Assembly (NCBI GenBank): GCA_025453925.1
Contig: JALOPK010000254.1
Span: 1 to 5,276, forward strand
DNA from: Candidatus Eiseniibacteriota bacterium
GTDB lineage: Bacteria > JAFGKV01
Direction of reading: 5' to 3'
DNA: 5,276 bases
Of the stretch, positions 1 to 4,437 are shown piece by piece (the first letter of the stretch is position 1; each line of letters opens with the position of its first letter). A program made the translations under genes and the position numbers. The notes below the pieces were generated by a model. It made no database searches. It was not told the origin of the DNA and saw nothing but the letters and a program-made list of their open reading frames with translations.

Positions 1-87
1 TCTCCCTTCTCCCGGAGGCTTGATAGACAGAGCGGCGGCAGCAAGAAACACGGCGAGGGCCTCGATGGGAAGCCCCCGCCGCGGCAT
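1..87 (-). CDS. 5' end of a probable exported protein (partial, runs off left edge)
   Basis: An open frame of 29 codons begins at the ATG at 87 and stays open to the window edge. Its start reads MPRRGLPIEALAVFLAAAA, a short basic segment followed by a hydrophobic stretch, as in a Sec signal peptide. It starts 17 nt after the stop of the PilX-like gene and continues the same-strand cluster, so it is probably the fifth gene of the operon. Many minor-pilin clusters carry a large PilY1/PilC-type adhesin at this position, but no PilY1 domain is visible, so that identity is only a guess from context. The Shine-Dalgarno signal is weak (TGAG just before the ATG). A competing ATG at 92, in another frame, is also open to the edge and gives a less signal-like, Pro/Cys/Leu-rich product. 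Confidence 0.5.
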   Translation of the reverse strand, partial: MPRRGLPIEALAVFLAAAALSIKPPGEGR

Positions 88-104: not shown

Positions 105-1508
105 CTACAGCACCTCCTGCCAGTTCTCCCGGGTTGCCTGCCACTGGACCGTGCCGTTTTCACGGCGCAGGTCGGGGAAGCACGGGGGAGGATCGGCGCA
201 GCCTCGATCGTCGAGGGTCCAGTCCGTCCCGTAGCCATGCTGGTAGTCGCTGCTTTCCGTGGCATGGAGCTGACCCTGCATGATGCCGCCGTAGATCATC
301 ATGATGCCTTCGCGCTCGCGGCTCGTGGCCTTTTCGACCCGGATACTCGCATTGCAGTGGGTCCCCACGTAGAACCCGAAGATCTGCCGGTCGCCCTCCA
401 CTCCCGGTTTCTGCGGGAAGAATAGGTCGCCGTCGGCACCGGTCTTCCAGCCTCCCATGAGGCCCAGACGGTCGTCGCTGGAAGGATCCAGGCGCGGGTC
501 ACTGGCGTAGAGGATGTCGCCGATGACCTTGATCTCCTGCCCTGCCATGATGGTGAGCCGCCCGTTGAGCGTTCCCTGCAAGTAGACATCACCCTTGTTT
601 CCAGTAGCGTTTATCGCGACGACGCAGTTGGTCGTAATCGGCCTGATCACTCCGTTCGGCGCGGTGTTCCACGGCGCTATGAGGCCGCCCGGCTGGTAGA
701 TGCGCATGGTGCCGTCTGCGATGAGCGTAATGTAGGTGCCGTTGCCGTTGCCGGGGAGCATGTACCCGCTGGCGGTCGCGCACGTAGCGGTCGGATCGGT
801 ATCCACCGTGCAGTCGATTTCCGCGACGTTCAACTGGTAGCCCTCGTAGAACGTCCCGTATCCGGGCGGACAGCCGCCGCCCTGGTCGAGCCCGGAGCAC
901 TGGAACCGGTCCGGCGTGACCGTGACCTTGCCGTAGAAGCGCGGCCCCCGCGGAGGATACCTATCGCTGTTGGTGATCTTCGGCGTCTTGTTGAAGTGGA
1001 CACGGCCGGTCGTCACGTCGAAGTCTCCGTACCATGCGTTGATGGCGCAGCATCCGGTCACCAGCATGCAGGCCGGTGACTCCTTCCGCAACACCACATC
1101 CAGCTCCGTGGTCGTCACGTTGGACCGGCCGCCTGCCTGGCGGGTGCAGGCCGAACGAACCTTGTACCCCCAGCCCTGGTATTGATTGGAGCAGTTGTTG
1201 GAGTCGGCATACACGATGGAAACGTTGGCGCTCGCCCCGTCGGGGTACGAGTAGGTCCCCAGGGTGTAGGCACCCGCATTGGCGCAGGGGGGCGGATCCT
1301 GGGCCTGCAGCCACTGGTAGCCCCAGGCGATACCGCCGTCGGAGCACTGCACCCCGGCCGTGGCTTCGATTTCGTTGAACGACATCTGGTGCTCGGTGAT
1401 CGAACCGACGATGAACCCGGCGGCGAGGACGCCGAGGATCAAGAGGGAGAACACCGCGACGATCAGCACGACGCCCCGGCGAGGGCTCATGCGCACAAAC
1501 GCGTGCAT
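105..1508 (-). CDS. PilX-like type IV pilus minor pilin, large and cysteine-rich
   Basis: A protein of 467 aa that begins like PilX/GspK-class pseudopilins. A basic leader ends in SPRRG, followed by a hydrophobic helix at about residues 13-35 and then the amphipathic helix ITEHQMSFNEIEATAG. The residue at mature position +5 is Val rather than Glu, which is usual for the PilX/GspK tip subunit. The other three pilins in this operon keep Glu+5. The remainder is a predicted extracellular region with 15 cysteines, including a CC pair near residue 154. Around residues 304-353 the pattern GDVYLQGTLNGRL...DRLGLMGG resembles the C-terminal beta-rich region of large PilX/DUF4900-type proteins; I recognise this by eye only. 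The start at 1508 is chosen because AGGAG (1516-1520) lies 7 nt upstream; the ATG at 1514 is only 1 nt from it. Probable role: pilus-tip or priming-complex subunit inserted in the inner membrane before assembly. It is far longer than classical PilX (about 170-200 aa). Confidence 0.82.
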   Translation of the reverse strand: MHAFVRMSPRRGVVLIVAVFSLLILGVLAAGFIVGSITEHQMSFNEIEATAGVQCSDGGIAWGYQWLQAQDPPPCANAGAYTLGTYSYPDGASANVSIVYADSNNCSNQYQGWGYKVRSACTRQAGGRSNVTTTELDVVLRKESPACMLVTGCCAINAWYGDFDVTTGRVHFNKTPKITNSDRYPPRGPRFYGKVTVTPDRFQCSGLDQGGGCPPGYGTFYEGYQLNVAEIDCTVDTDPTATCATASGYMLPGNGNGTYITLIADGTMRIYQPGGLIAPWNTAPNGVIRPITTNCVVAINATGNKGDVYLQGTLNGRLTIMAGQEIKVIGDILYASDPRLDPSSDDRLGLMGGWKTGADGDLFFPQKPGVEGDRQIFGFYVGTHCNASIRVEKATSREREGIMMIYGGIMQGQLHATESSDYQHGYGTDWTLDDRGCADPPPCFPDLRRENGTVQWQATRENWQEVL

Positions 1509-1524
1509 GGTCATGCTCCTTTCA

Positions 1525-2031
1525 TTAGATGTTGCGGGGAGCGACGGCGCCAGACACCGTGAACGTGTCGCTCTCGTCCGGCAACATCACCGAGACAGTG
1601 ACGAGAATGCGCTTGACCAGTTGGTCATTGGCTATCGTGATGGGCGGCGAGACCACGTTGCCTTCAAGGTTCAGATACGTGAAACCAAGGTCAACCGCCC
1701 GTTCGGTCACTTCCTGCATGCCGCTGCCGCCTGCCTCCCGACGGAGTGAGCGGCCGTGCAGAGCATACTTGTAGGTCTGGGAGACGCCTGAGATCCGCGC
1801 GAGAAACAGGATCGAATCGGCTTGTCCGCTCTGTATGGACGAGCAGTGCCGCAATTCCCTTGAGAGTATGTCAAAGGAGGCCCGGGCATCGTGGATCATG
1901 TCGGCGCGGGCCTGGAGGGGGCCGGACAGGCTGAGGTGCCCGCGGAACACCATGAAGAGGGCAGCGCTCACGATGCCGAAGATCGTGAGCGCGACGATCA
2001 TCTCGACCAGGGTCAGTCCGCGTCGACGCAT
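1525..2031 (-). CDS. PilW/GspJ-like prepilin-type N-methylation protein
   Basis: A protein of 168 aa with a very short class III leader. MRRRG is followed by LTLVEMIVALTIFGIVSA, so the prepilin peptidase PilD would cut after Gly5 and methylate Leu+1, and Glu is at mature position +5. A hydrophobic helix spans about residues 6-28. The helix continues as ARADMIHDARASFDILSREL, matching the PilW/GspJ pattern of a long N-terminal helix running into an arginine/leucine-rich stretch. The C-terminus has alternating hydrophobic strands (RILVTVSVMLPDES). It is short for PilW and nearer GspJ size, so the exact subfamily is open. GGAGG directly follows the upstream stop codon, with 10 nt between that stop and this ATG, consistent with translational coupling. 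It would be a minor subunit of the pilus or pseudopilus tip complex in the inner membrane. Confidence 0.87.
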   Translation of the reverse strand: MRRRGLTLVEMIVALTIFGIVSAALFMVFRGHLSLSGPLQARADMIHDARASFDILSRELRHCSSIQSGQADSILFLARISGVSQTYKYALHGRSLRREAGGSGMQEVTERAVDLGFTYLNLEGNVVSPPITIANDQLVKRILVTVSVMLPDESDTFTVSGAVAPRNI

Positions 2032-2041
2032 GTCAGCCTCC

Positions 2042-2407
2042 TCACAACTCGGCCGCGATGACCGTGGACATCGCGATTGAGTACGGCCGCCCCTGCCAGT
2101 TCCATCTGACGGTCACCACCGCGCGACGGGTTTCGGCAATGGGACCCGCGCTGATCGTCCACGTGAGGGTGTAACGGCCCGTCACGCGGGATCCCGATGA
2201 GGGGGGAAACGGCGCCGCATTGAGCGCCTCCAAGTGCTGTTCCGCCAACACCGAAGCTTCGGTCTGGAACTCGCTCGCGATGAGCAACGTGGTGCCCATC
2301 GGCCACTGGCTCACCACGCCCAGCATGCCCACCATGAGCAGCACCATGGCCACCATGACTTCCACGAGCGACATGCCGTGGGATCGAGTACGACTGGTTC
2401 CGGTCAT
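2042..2407 (-). CDS. PilV/GspI-like prepilin-type N-methylation protein
   Basis: A protein of 121 aa. The leader MTGTSRTRSHG is followed by MSLVEVMVAMVLLMVGMLGV, a canonical class III signal with Glu at +5 and a hydrophobic helix at about residues 12-32. The Met-rich segment ending LMVGMLGV is typical of PilV/GspI. The helix continues through TEASVLAEQHLEALNA, and the C-terminal half forms short strands (RYTLTWTISAGP, RAVVTVRWNWQG), as in PilV-like minor pilins. The start at 2407 is preferred over the upstream in-frame codon at 2452 because GAGGTGAG ends 4 nt before it and the 2452 start would overlap the preceding gene. The upstream stop lies 10 nt before this ATG. Predicted role: processed by prepilin peptidase and inserted into the inner membrane as part of the minor-pilin initiation complex with its three neighbours. 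Confidence 0.88.
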   Translation of the reverse strand: MTGTSRTRSHGMSLVEVMVAMVLLMVGMLGVVSQWPMGTTLLIASEFQTEASVLAEQHLEALNAAPFPPSSGSRVTGRYTLTWTISAGPIAETRRAVVTVRWNWQGRPYSIAMSTVIAAEL

Positions 2408-2417
2408 CAGGCTCACC

Positions 2418-2843
2418 TCACGGATTCTGGATGCGGACGCGGCCGACCGCATTGACGATCACCTGCTTGCTGCGGGCGGCATCGCCAACGGTGATAGTTG
2501 CCCCCACGGCGGTGCCGCGGGCCTGGAAGGTCGGGTTGTTCGTCGAAGCCAAGACGGAGGCACCGCCGGACAGACCGAAAATGTAGAGGGTGTCACCGCT
2601 GGCCTGGCTCACCACGAGCACTTTGGTCGGGTTGGCGTCGGCGATCACCTGGGTGGTGTGACGGGTCGTGATCGCCATTTGCCGGGCGAACCGCAGCGCG
2701 CTCGCCACCTGCTTGGAGGCCGTGTCAACGCTTCCGGACGAAAGTGTTGAGAGAAATCGCGGCGCTACGGTCACAACGAGAATGATGACGATCACGATCA
2801 CGATGGACAGCTCGATCATCGTGAAGCCTTTGCGCCATCGCAT
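2418..2843 (-). CDS. GspH/FimT-like prepilin-type N-methylation protein
   Basis: A protein of 141 aa with the leader MRWRKG followed by FTMIELSIVIVIVIILVVTV. This is a textbook prepilin peptidase site with Phe+1 and Glu+5, and a hydrophobic helix at about residues 7-28. The segment VDTASKQVASALRFARQMAITTRH fits the GspH/FimT signature, in which the N-terminal helix ends in an LxxALxxARxxAI-like run. The rest is predicted beta-strand (TQVIADANPTKVLVV, KQVIVNAVGRVRI) and ends near the classic GspH position with a G-R-V-R-I strand. The start at 2843 is chosen because the leader has the right length and a GGTGG-containing purine-rich stretch lies just upstream; the in-frame ATG at 2891 would add 16 unlikely residues and lacks a Shine-Dalgarno signal. 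It is the first gene of the operon and lies about 84 nt downstream of the predicted sigma-54 transcription start. Confidence 0.88.
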   Translation of the reverse strand: MRWRKGFTMIELSIVIVIVIILVVTVAPRFLSTLSSGSVDTASKQVASALRFARQMAITTRHTTQVIADANPTKVLVVSQASGDTLYIFGLSGGASVLASTNNPTFQARGTAVGATITVGDAARSKQVIVNAVGRVRIQNP

Positions 2844-2937: not shown

Positions 2938-2953
2938 AGCAAGTGGCGTGCCA
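2938..2953 (-). promoter_or_regulatory. Sigma-54 (RpoN) -24/-12 promoter for the pilin operon
   Basis: Read on the minus strand this is TGGCACG-CCAC-TTGCT, which matches the RpoN consensus TGGCACG-N4-TTGCW at every defined position. The invariant GG (2952-2951) and GC (2940-2939) are separated by exactly 10 nt. The expected start point is near 2927, leaving a leader of about 84 nt before the first pilin gene, with the promoter pointing into the operon. Sigma-54 promoters need an NtrC-type activator bound upstream, and type IV pilus genes are known RpoN/PilR targets in several bacteria. Part of the motif also forms a small dyad (GTGGC-GT-GCCAC), which probably follows from the consensus. Confidence 0.8.
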
Positions 2954-2999: not shown

Positions 3000-3094
3000 G
3001 TCGCGCAAAGATGACGGGGCGGCCGCGGCTCAGGCTGCATGCCGCTGCCGGGACCCCGGCCGTGAAACCGCATTCCGGAGGGTGAAGGGACTTT

Positions 3095-3142
3095 CACGTC
3101 TTGTCTTCGGGCGGAAGCCGACATGCCCCCGGCTTCGACGTG
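3095..3142 (-). repeat. Extended bulged hairpin in the rsgA-pilin intergenic region
   Basis: CACGTC (3095-3100) pairs with GACGTG (3137-3142), and GAAGCCG (3114-3120) pairs with CGGCTTC (3130-3136). On one side the two arms are contiguous (3130-3142); on the other they are separated by 13 nt, giving a 13-bp stem with a one-sided bulge and a 9-nt loop. The CACG part of the outer arm also belongs to a different dyad, CGTGAAA (3061-3067) with TTTCACG (3092-3098), so the two folds exclude each other. No known riboswitch class was recognised. Confidence 0.4.
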
Positions 3143-3160: not shown

Positions 3161-3196
3161 ATATAGGACATGTCCAATATAAGACACGTCCTATAT
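3161..3196. promoter_or_regulatory. Tandem palindromic operator-like element (two 16-bp boxes)
   Basis: Two adjacent 16-bp boxes, ATATAGGACATGTCCA (3161-3176) and ATATAAGACACGTCCT (3177-3192), match at 13 of 16 positions and are followed by a closing ATAT. The core of the first box, GGACATGTCC, is a perfect palindrome; the core of the second is nearly one. The whole element is also an inverted repeat with 14-nt arms (3161-3174 and 3183-3196), one mismatch and an 8-nt spacer. It is strikingly A/T-rich for this GC-rich DNA. This is the form expected of a binding site for two cooperating dimers. It lies about 250 bp upstream of the predicted sigma-54 start, so it could be an enhancer site. The TGTC/GACA half-sites are reminiscent of PilR sites, but the assignment is speculative. 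Confidence 0.6.
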
Positions 3197-4328: not shown

Positions 4329-4404
4329 GGCGGCGTAGCTCAGCTGGTAGAGCAGCGGAATCATAATCCGTAGGTCCGGGGTCCGAATCCCTGCGCCGCT
4401 ACCA
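4329..4404 (+). tRNA. tRNA-Met (CAU), elongator type
   Basis: A 76-nt cloverleaf with encoded CCA. The acceptor GGCGGCG (4329-4335) pairs with CGCCGCT (4394-4400), with a G-U at the first pair. The D arm is GCTC/GAGC with an 8-nt loop containing GG. The anticodon stem is GCGGA/TCCGT around loop ATCATAA, with anticodon CAT at 4362-4364. The variable loop is 5 nt, the T stem is CGGGG/CCCTG and the discriminator is A. The G1-U72 pair, rather than the unpaired C1-A72 of bacterial initiators, favours elongator Met; CAU-reading tRNA-Ile2 is a less likely alternative. The T loop reads TCCGAAT, so position 55 is C instead of the near-universal U. Confidence 0.95.
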
Positions 4405-4406
4405 AG

Positions 4407-4437
4407 AAGAGGCGGGGAAATGATTCCCCGCCTCTTT
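4407..4437 (+). terminator. Intrinsic terminator after the tRNA gene
   Basis: AAGAGGCGGGGAA (4407-4419) and TTCCCCGCCTCTT (4424-4436) form a perfect 13-bp stem around a 4-nt loop (ATGA), starting 2 nt after the CCA end and running into TTTGCATTTCTG. It serves the tRNA transcript. As a near-symmetrical stem it may also stop minus-strand transcription from the SGNH gene, although the tail on that side is poor in T. Confidence 0.88.

Follow-up and report, generated by a model that had tools for sequence, protein, structure and literature searches.

A probable sigma-54 promoter with a candidate upstream enhancer at a minor-pilin operon of Candidatus Eiseniibacteriota

The minor-pilin operon and its surroundings

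The stretch of DNA analysed here, referred to as the window (5,276 nucleotides), is the whole of contig C284 of a Candidatus Eiseniibacteriota MAG (G000) of 3.9 Mb, assembled in 502 contigs and 82% complete. It was compared with a relative of the same genus (G001) and one of the same family (G002), the rest of the searched genomes being related at the domain level only. Four pilin genes follow one another on the minus strand of the window. The first (2418..2843) encodes a GspH/FimT-like minor pilin (PF12019, 6.4e-8; PF07963), with orthologues that are 57% and 47% identical; its start codon, the ATG at 2843, is backed by a GAAAGGYGGTG ribosome site, and this site, the start codon and the first codons are kept in the three genomes. 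The second gene (2042..2407) encodes a PilV-like (GspI-type) minor pilin with PF07963, for which the best model is PilV (TIGR02523, E 2.4e-7, below the model's cut-off), and the third (1525..2031) a PilW/GspJ-type minor pilin with PF07963 and weak gspI/gspJ matches. The prepilin N-terminal domain PF07963 is present in these three genes. The last gene (105..1514) encodes a PilX-like pilin of 469 aa with a large C-terminal domain; the window protein has no direct Pfam match, and PilX_N (PF14341) is found in two of the three aligned orthologues.

The operon ends at an intrinsic-terminator-like hairpin of 15 pairs on the same strand (49..83), a kind of site of which four were found against 2.1 expected. 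No pilY1 was found in the operon, the PilX-like gene being followed in the window by this hairpin and the end of the contig. In G002 a gene for a 203-aa protein comes next after the PilX-like gene, and then a topoisomerase-like and a trmFO-like gene, the last two named from N-terminal sequences. Upstream of the operon, on the same strand, the neighbour in the window is rsgA. A tRNA with a CAU anticodon (4329-4404), the only match of an Rfam search, separates rsgA from a GDSL-type hydrolase gene and has a strong hairpin terminator (4406-4437) after it. Both relatives possess an orthologous pilin operon, with upstream neighbours other than rsgA, and the operon is carried by these three genomes only. 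Further minor-pilin-like gene sets were observed elsewhere, one in the MAG itself (G000:C249, L081; GspH, PilW-type and PilX-like genes, with no comparable sigma-54 site) and one in the same-family relative (G002:C57).

The promoter core and the upstream dyads

Between rsgA and the operon, and oriented into the latter, lies a predicted sigma-54 -24/-12 promoter core (TGGCACG-CCAC-TTGCT), TGGCACGCCACTTGCT (2938..2953, minus strand), with its GG at 2952/2951 and its GC at 2940/2939. A consensus scan of the window returned this site as the sole perfect RpoN match, with no mismatch to TGGCACGN4TTGCW at the defined positions, the runner-up having two mismatches. The gap between GG and GC is exactly 10 nt, and the 3' edge of the core lies 94 nt before the first pilin ATG. 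The preliminary description of this DNA had claimed a full consensus match with this spacing, an orientation into the operon about 95 nt from the first pilin start, and a transcription start near 2927; the measurements agree with each of these, the last in the form of a predicted +1 at about 2927 computed from the position of the site. No sigma-70-type site was found.

The footprint of the core consists of three sequences. The orthologous sites, CGGCACGATGCTTGCT in G001:C288 and TGGCACCGATTTTGCA in G002:C251, each have one mismatch with GG and GC intact, and neither is surpassed by another site in the 500 nt upstream of its operon. Measured from the 5' end of the site to the orthologous ATG, the distances are 98 nt in G001 and 117 nt in G002, as compared with 110 nt in the window. 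The remaining intergenic DNA of the three genomes aligns poorly. In 4000 dinucleotide shuffles run on the upstream DNA of each of the three orthologues, a perfect site never arose in the 120-nt promoter-proximal zone, and a site with at most one mismatch arose there in 0.025-0.1% of cases. Genome-wide, strict YGGCACGN4TTGCW sites number 11 in the MAG against 3 in the reversed control; the relatives show no enrichment (4 against 6 in G001, 2 against 2 in G002). In view of these counts in the relatives, match quality alone is weak evidence, and the strict-consensus scan was rejected as stand-alone proof in spite of the excess in the MAG; the case for the predicted promoter is carried by position and by conservation in three genomes.

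Farther upstream, a pair of dyads may serve as an enhancer for a sigma-54 activator. The primary dyad, GTGAAAGTCCCTTCAC (3082..3097, minus strand), lies 128 bp from the -24 side of the core, its centre at about -162 from the expected +1, and a second, imperfect dyad, GGAATGCGGTTTCA (3063..3076, minus strand), lies 20 bp, or about two turns, nearer the promoter, with its centre at about -142. The primary dyad recurs as GTGAACGCCGCTTCAC at 125 bp from the core in G001 and as ATGAAATGTTTTTCAT at 133 bp in G002, and the second copy, with one mismatch, is offset toward the promoter by 20 bp in the window and in G001 and by 21 bp in G002. Each of the three genomes holds exactly one instance of the composite TGAA-N6-TTCA-N113-143-GGCNCN5YTGCW, in every case at the pilin operon, and the reversed controls hold none. 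As the dyad pattern was derived from the three promoters before counting, this number tests whether the motif is unique and is no independent discovery of it; shuffle figures for the dyad are post hoc for the same reason. The fetched DNA, about 0.8 Mb with redundancy included, contains the tandem pair at the three orthologous promoters and nowhere else. Enhancers of the NtrC family usually consist of paired dyads that are about two turns apart and lie 140-160 bp ahead of the start; judged by their arrangement, the tandem dyads are a candidate for an enhancer of this type.

A strong dyad, ATATAGGACGTGTC...GACATGTCCTATAT (3161-3196), was not supported as the enhancer, being absent in the relatives. 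These positions, about 235-270 bp ahead of the predicted start, carry a near-perfect inverted repeat, ATATAGGACATGTC / GACACGTCCTATAT, which embeds the palindrome GGACATGTCC and is missing from the upstream regions of both relatives; an operator or a mobile remnant is possible.

Two readings would deprive the core or the dyads of the proposed role. In one, the match is a chance occurrence, and the operon owes its transcript to a sigma-70-type promoter or to read-through from rsgA, which is consistent with the near-chance level of the strict consensus in the genomes of the relatives and with the position of rsgA upstream on the same strand. Such a coincidence is very improbable, however, given a core kept at the same position in otherwise poorly alignable intergenic DNA of three genomes, the dyads linked to it and the failure to find a sigma-70-type site; moreover, read-through is not a conserved arrangement, because the upstream neighbour differs in both relatives. 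In the other reading, the promoter is a sigma-54 promoter and the dyads are an operator layered on it, bound by a repressor or another non-sigma-54 regulator, for example a TetR-like protein. The exact form GTGAA-N6-TTCAC is found at three places per genome, some of them adjoining TetR-type genes (G000:C145, G002:C146), which points in this direction; nevertheless, the dyads lie 125-133 bp upstream of the core, farther than usual repressor positions, their tandem spacing of about two turns is what NtrC-family sites typically show and no regulator gene adjoins the pilin operon, so that an operator seems improbable.

RpoN, its activators and the machine served

The preliminary description had proposed a search of the genome for rpoN and for a linked pilS/pilR pair, and had treated the absence of rpoN as refuting the promoter. 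No rpoN was found in the MAG, at its completeness of 82%, and hpf and hprK are missing too. Both relatives have rpoN directly after lptB, in a locus lptB-rpoN-hpf-hprK; the syntenic contig of the MAG (C248) runs from kdsB- and pyrG-like genes through lptB and ends inside the latter. Because the contig breaks inside the gene that neighbours rpoN in the relatives, with hpf and hprK lost as well, the absence is most plausibly a gap in the assembly, and the conclusion that the promoter is thereby refuted, formally drawn from the assembly, was rejected, the break lying directly 5' of rpoN. RpoN exceeds the family cut-off in both relatives, and that of G001 carries the AID, CBD and DBD. The MAG also encodes ten strong PF00158 sigma-54 activators, with GAFTGA-like motifs seen in eight of them on the fetched contigs. 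Strict sigma-54-like sites were also observed about 40-140 nt before other genes of the MAG, on C162, C337, C174, C238, C440 and C496 (L078, L075, L079, L072, L076 and L077), the genes that follow encoding a ClpB-type chaperone, an AhpC/TSA (Bcp-like) peroxiredoxin, an M16 peptidase and exported or DUF362 proteins; these sites hint at a sigma-54 stress regulon.

Taken together, these data suggest that a functional, activator-dependent sigma-54 (RpoN) promoter very probably drives the four-gene operon of GspH/FimT-, PilV-, PilW/GspJ- and PilX-like minor pilins, and the promoter that the preliminary description had placed before its GspH-PilV-PilW-PilX cluster is upheld by a site, a position and a tandem dyad kept in two relatives and by RpoN and activators in the lineage. 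From these observations we infer how binding, the start point, looping and the kind of activator might fit together. RpoN-RNA polymerase would form a closed complex on 2938-2953, from which transcription would start near 2927. The tandem TGAA-N6-TTCA dyads at 3063-3097, some 140-160 bp upstream, would be occupied by an NtrC-family activator, which would loop over to the promoter and open the closed complex; the minor pilins that prime assembly would in this way be produced only upon a signal.

The activator may be the PilR of a pilS-pilT-pilR cluster, in which case PilS sensing would govern the minor pilins as it does the classical target pilA, although the balance leans somewhat against it. 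In the relatives (G001:C154, G002:C14) a pilS gene with a PilS-like TM domain (PF25323), pilT and a gene for an NtrC-type regulator are linked beside T4P genes, and in G001:C228 (L150) a sigma-54-like site with two mismatches, CGGCACGGGAGTTGCG (1203-1218), is found 92 nt ahead of a gene for a short pilin, itself a possible major pilin. The tandem dyad, on the other hand, was not found in the contigs with pilSR, nor before any other fetched pilin gene, pilA-like ones included; about ten other activators are encoded in the MAG; and the short C/GTGTC repeats reportedly recognised by P. aeruginosa PilR are unlike the TGAA-N6-TTCA dyad. The linked pilS/pilR pair looked for is thus present in both relatives, and the MAG assembly yielded no clear pilR orthologue, the best match being 41% identical. 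PilR of the T4P cluster is one candidate among at least ten activators. Another candidate was observed in G001:C93 (L149; 4628-6519), where a small pilin gene and a gene for an NtrC-type response regulator are divergently oriented, with a histidine-kinase-like gene located upstream; this regulator has apparent counterparts in G000:C314 and G002:C105.

A further reading keeps the sigma-54 promoter as real but takes the products of the operon for GspH-I-J-K pseudopilins, which would serve a type II secretion-like machine with a separate gspE-F-G locus. The gene order is that of gspHIJK, the operon has no pilY1, the only motor ATPase assembled in the MAG (gspE-type) sits in a gspE-F-G-like locus, and the corresponding locus of G002 is followed by no recognisable pseudopilin genes. 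Against this stand the PilV model as the best match of gene 2, the PilX_N matches of two gene 4 orthologues, the further minor-pilin-like sets at G000:C249 and G002:C57, and the T4aP genes pilB, pilT, pilS and pilR of the relatives (pilB/pilT-type motor genes in G002, a pilT-type one in G001), the lack of which in the MAG is probably due to its incompleteness; a secretion machine is, on this evidence, unlikely. The earlier claim that the promoter controls a pilus tip complex keeps its basis in a minor-pilin gene set with PilV and PilX_N matches and is weakened by the lack of pilY1 and the gspHIJK order, with which the set could serve a type II secretion-like machine.

For the predicted sigma-54 promoter, a narrower suggestion can be put forward tentatively, and with more doubt than confidence: the circuit may be single-purpose, with the tandem-dyad enhancer of one activator (dyads 20-21 bp apart) serving nothing but the minor-pilin operon in this lineage, so that pilus priming and not the supply of major pilin would be regulated.

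Comparison with known systems

The control of pilA by RpoN and PilR is well documented in Pseudomonas aeruginosa and Geobacter sulfurreducens, the consensus in the latter species being TTGGCACGGTTTTTGCT (PMC2725144, PMC6058289). Like these promoters, that of the window has a -24/-12 core, a type IV pilin target and, presumably, an NtrC-type activator; the pilA promoters differ in that their target is the major pilin, adjoining pilR in G. sulfurreducens, whereas in the window the target is a minor-pilin operon, the candidate enhancer motif is another one and no regulator gene lies nearby. According to the description of the predicted PilR regulon of G. sulfurreducens given in PMC6058289, sigma-54 promoters were predicted upstream of many T4P genes; that prediction relied on an in silico model of PilR sites, and the present one relies on a phylogenetic footprint of core and enhancer.

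Minor-pilin operons are also under control in other bacteria. In P. aeruginosa, the fimU-pilVWXY1Y2E operon is controlled by AlgZR and cAMP/Vfr and is not described in PMC8787478 as RpoN-dependent; it belongs to the same class of minor-pilin operon and shares with the window a signal-dependent control, which in the window is predicted. In the HsfBA system of Myxococcus xanthus, the NtrC-like HsfA directly controls the pilY1.1 and pilY1.3 / FimU-PilV-PilW-PilX operons (PMC9109919), a likeness to the candidate NtrC-like regulator of the window operon; the HsfBA operons, however, include pilY1 and HsfA acts on many further targets, whereas the window operon has no pilY1 and its enhancer composite occurs once per genome. 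Given the HsfA precedent for sigma-54/NtrC-type control of minor-pilin operons and that of RpoN/PilR on pilA, the new promoter is a further case of a known kind. The promoter type itself is ordinary and well known, and what is less usual is the minor-pilin target and the lineage-specific candidate enhancer, a concrete motif that offers a handle for finding the activator; RpoN and an NtrC-type activator would here act at the minor-pilin step in a poorly sampled lineage, whereas in the textbook cases the major pilin is the target.
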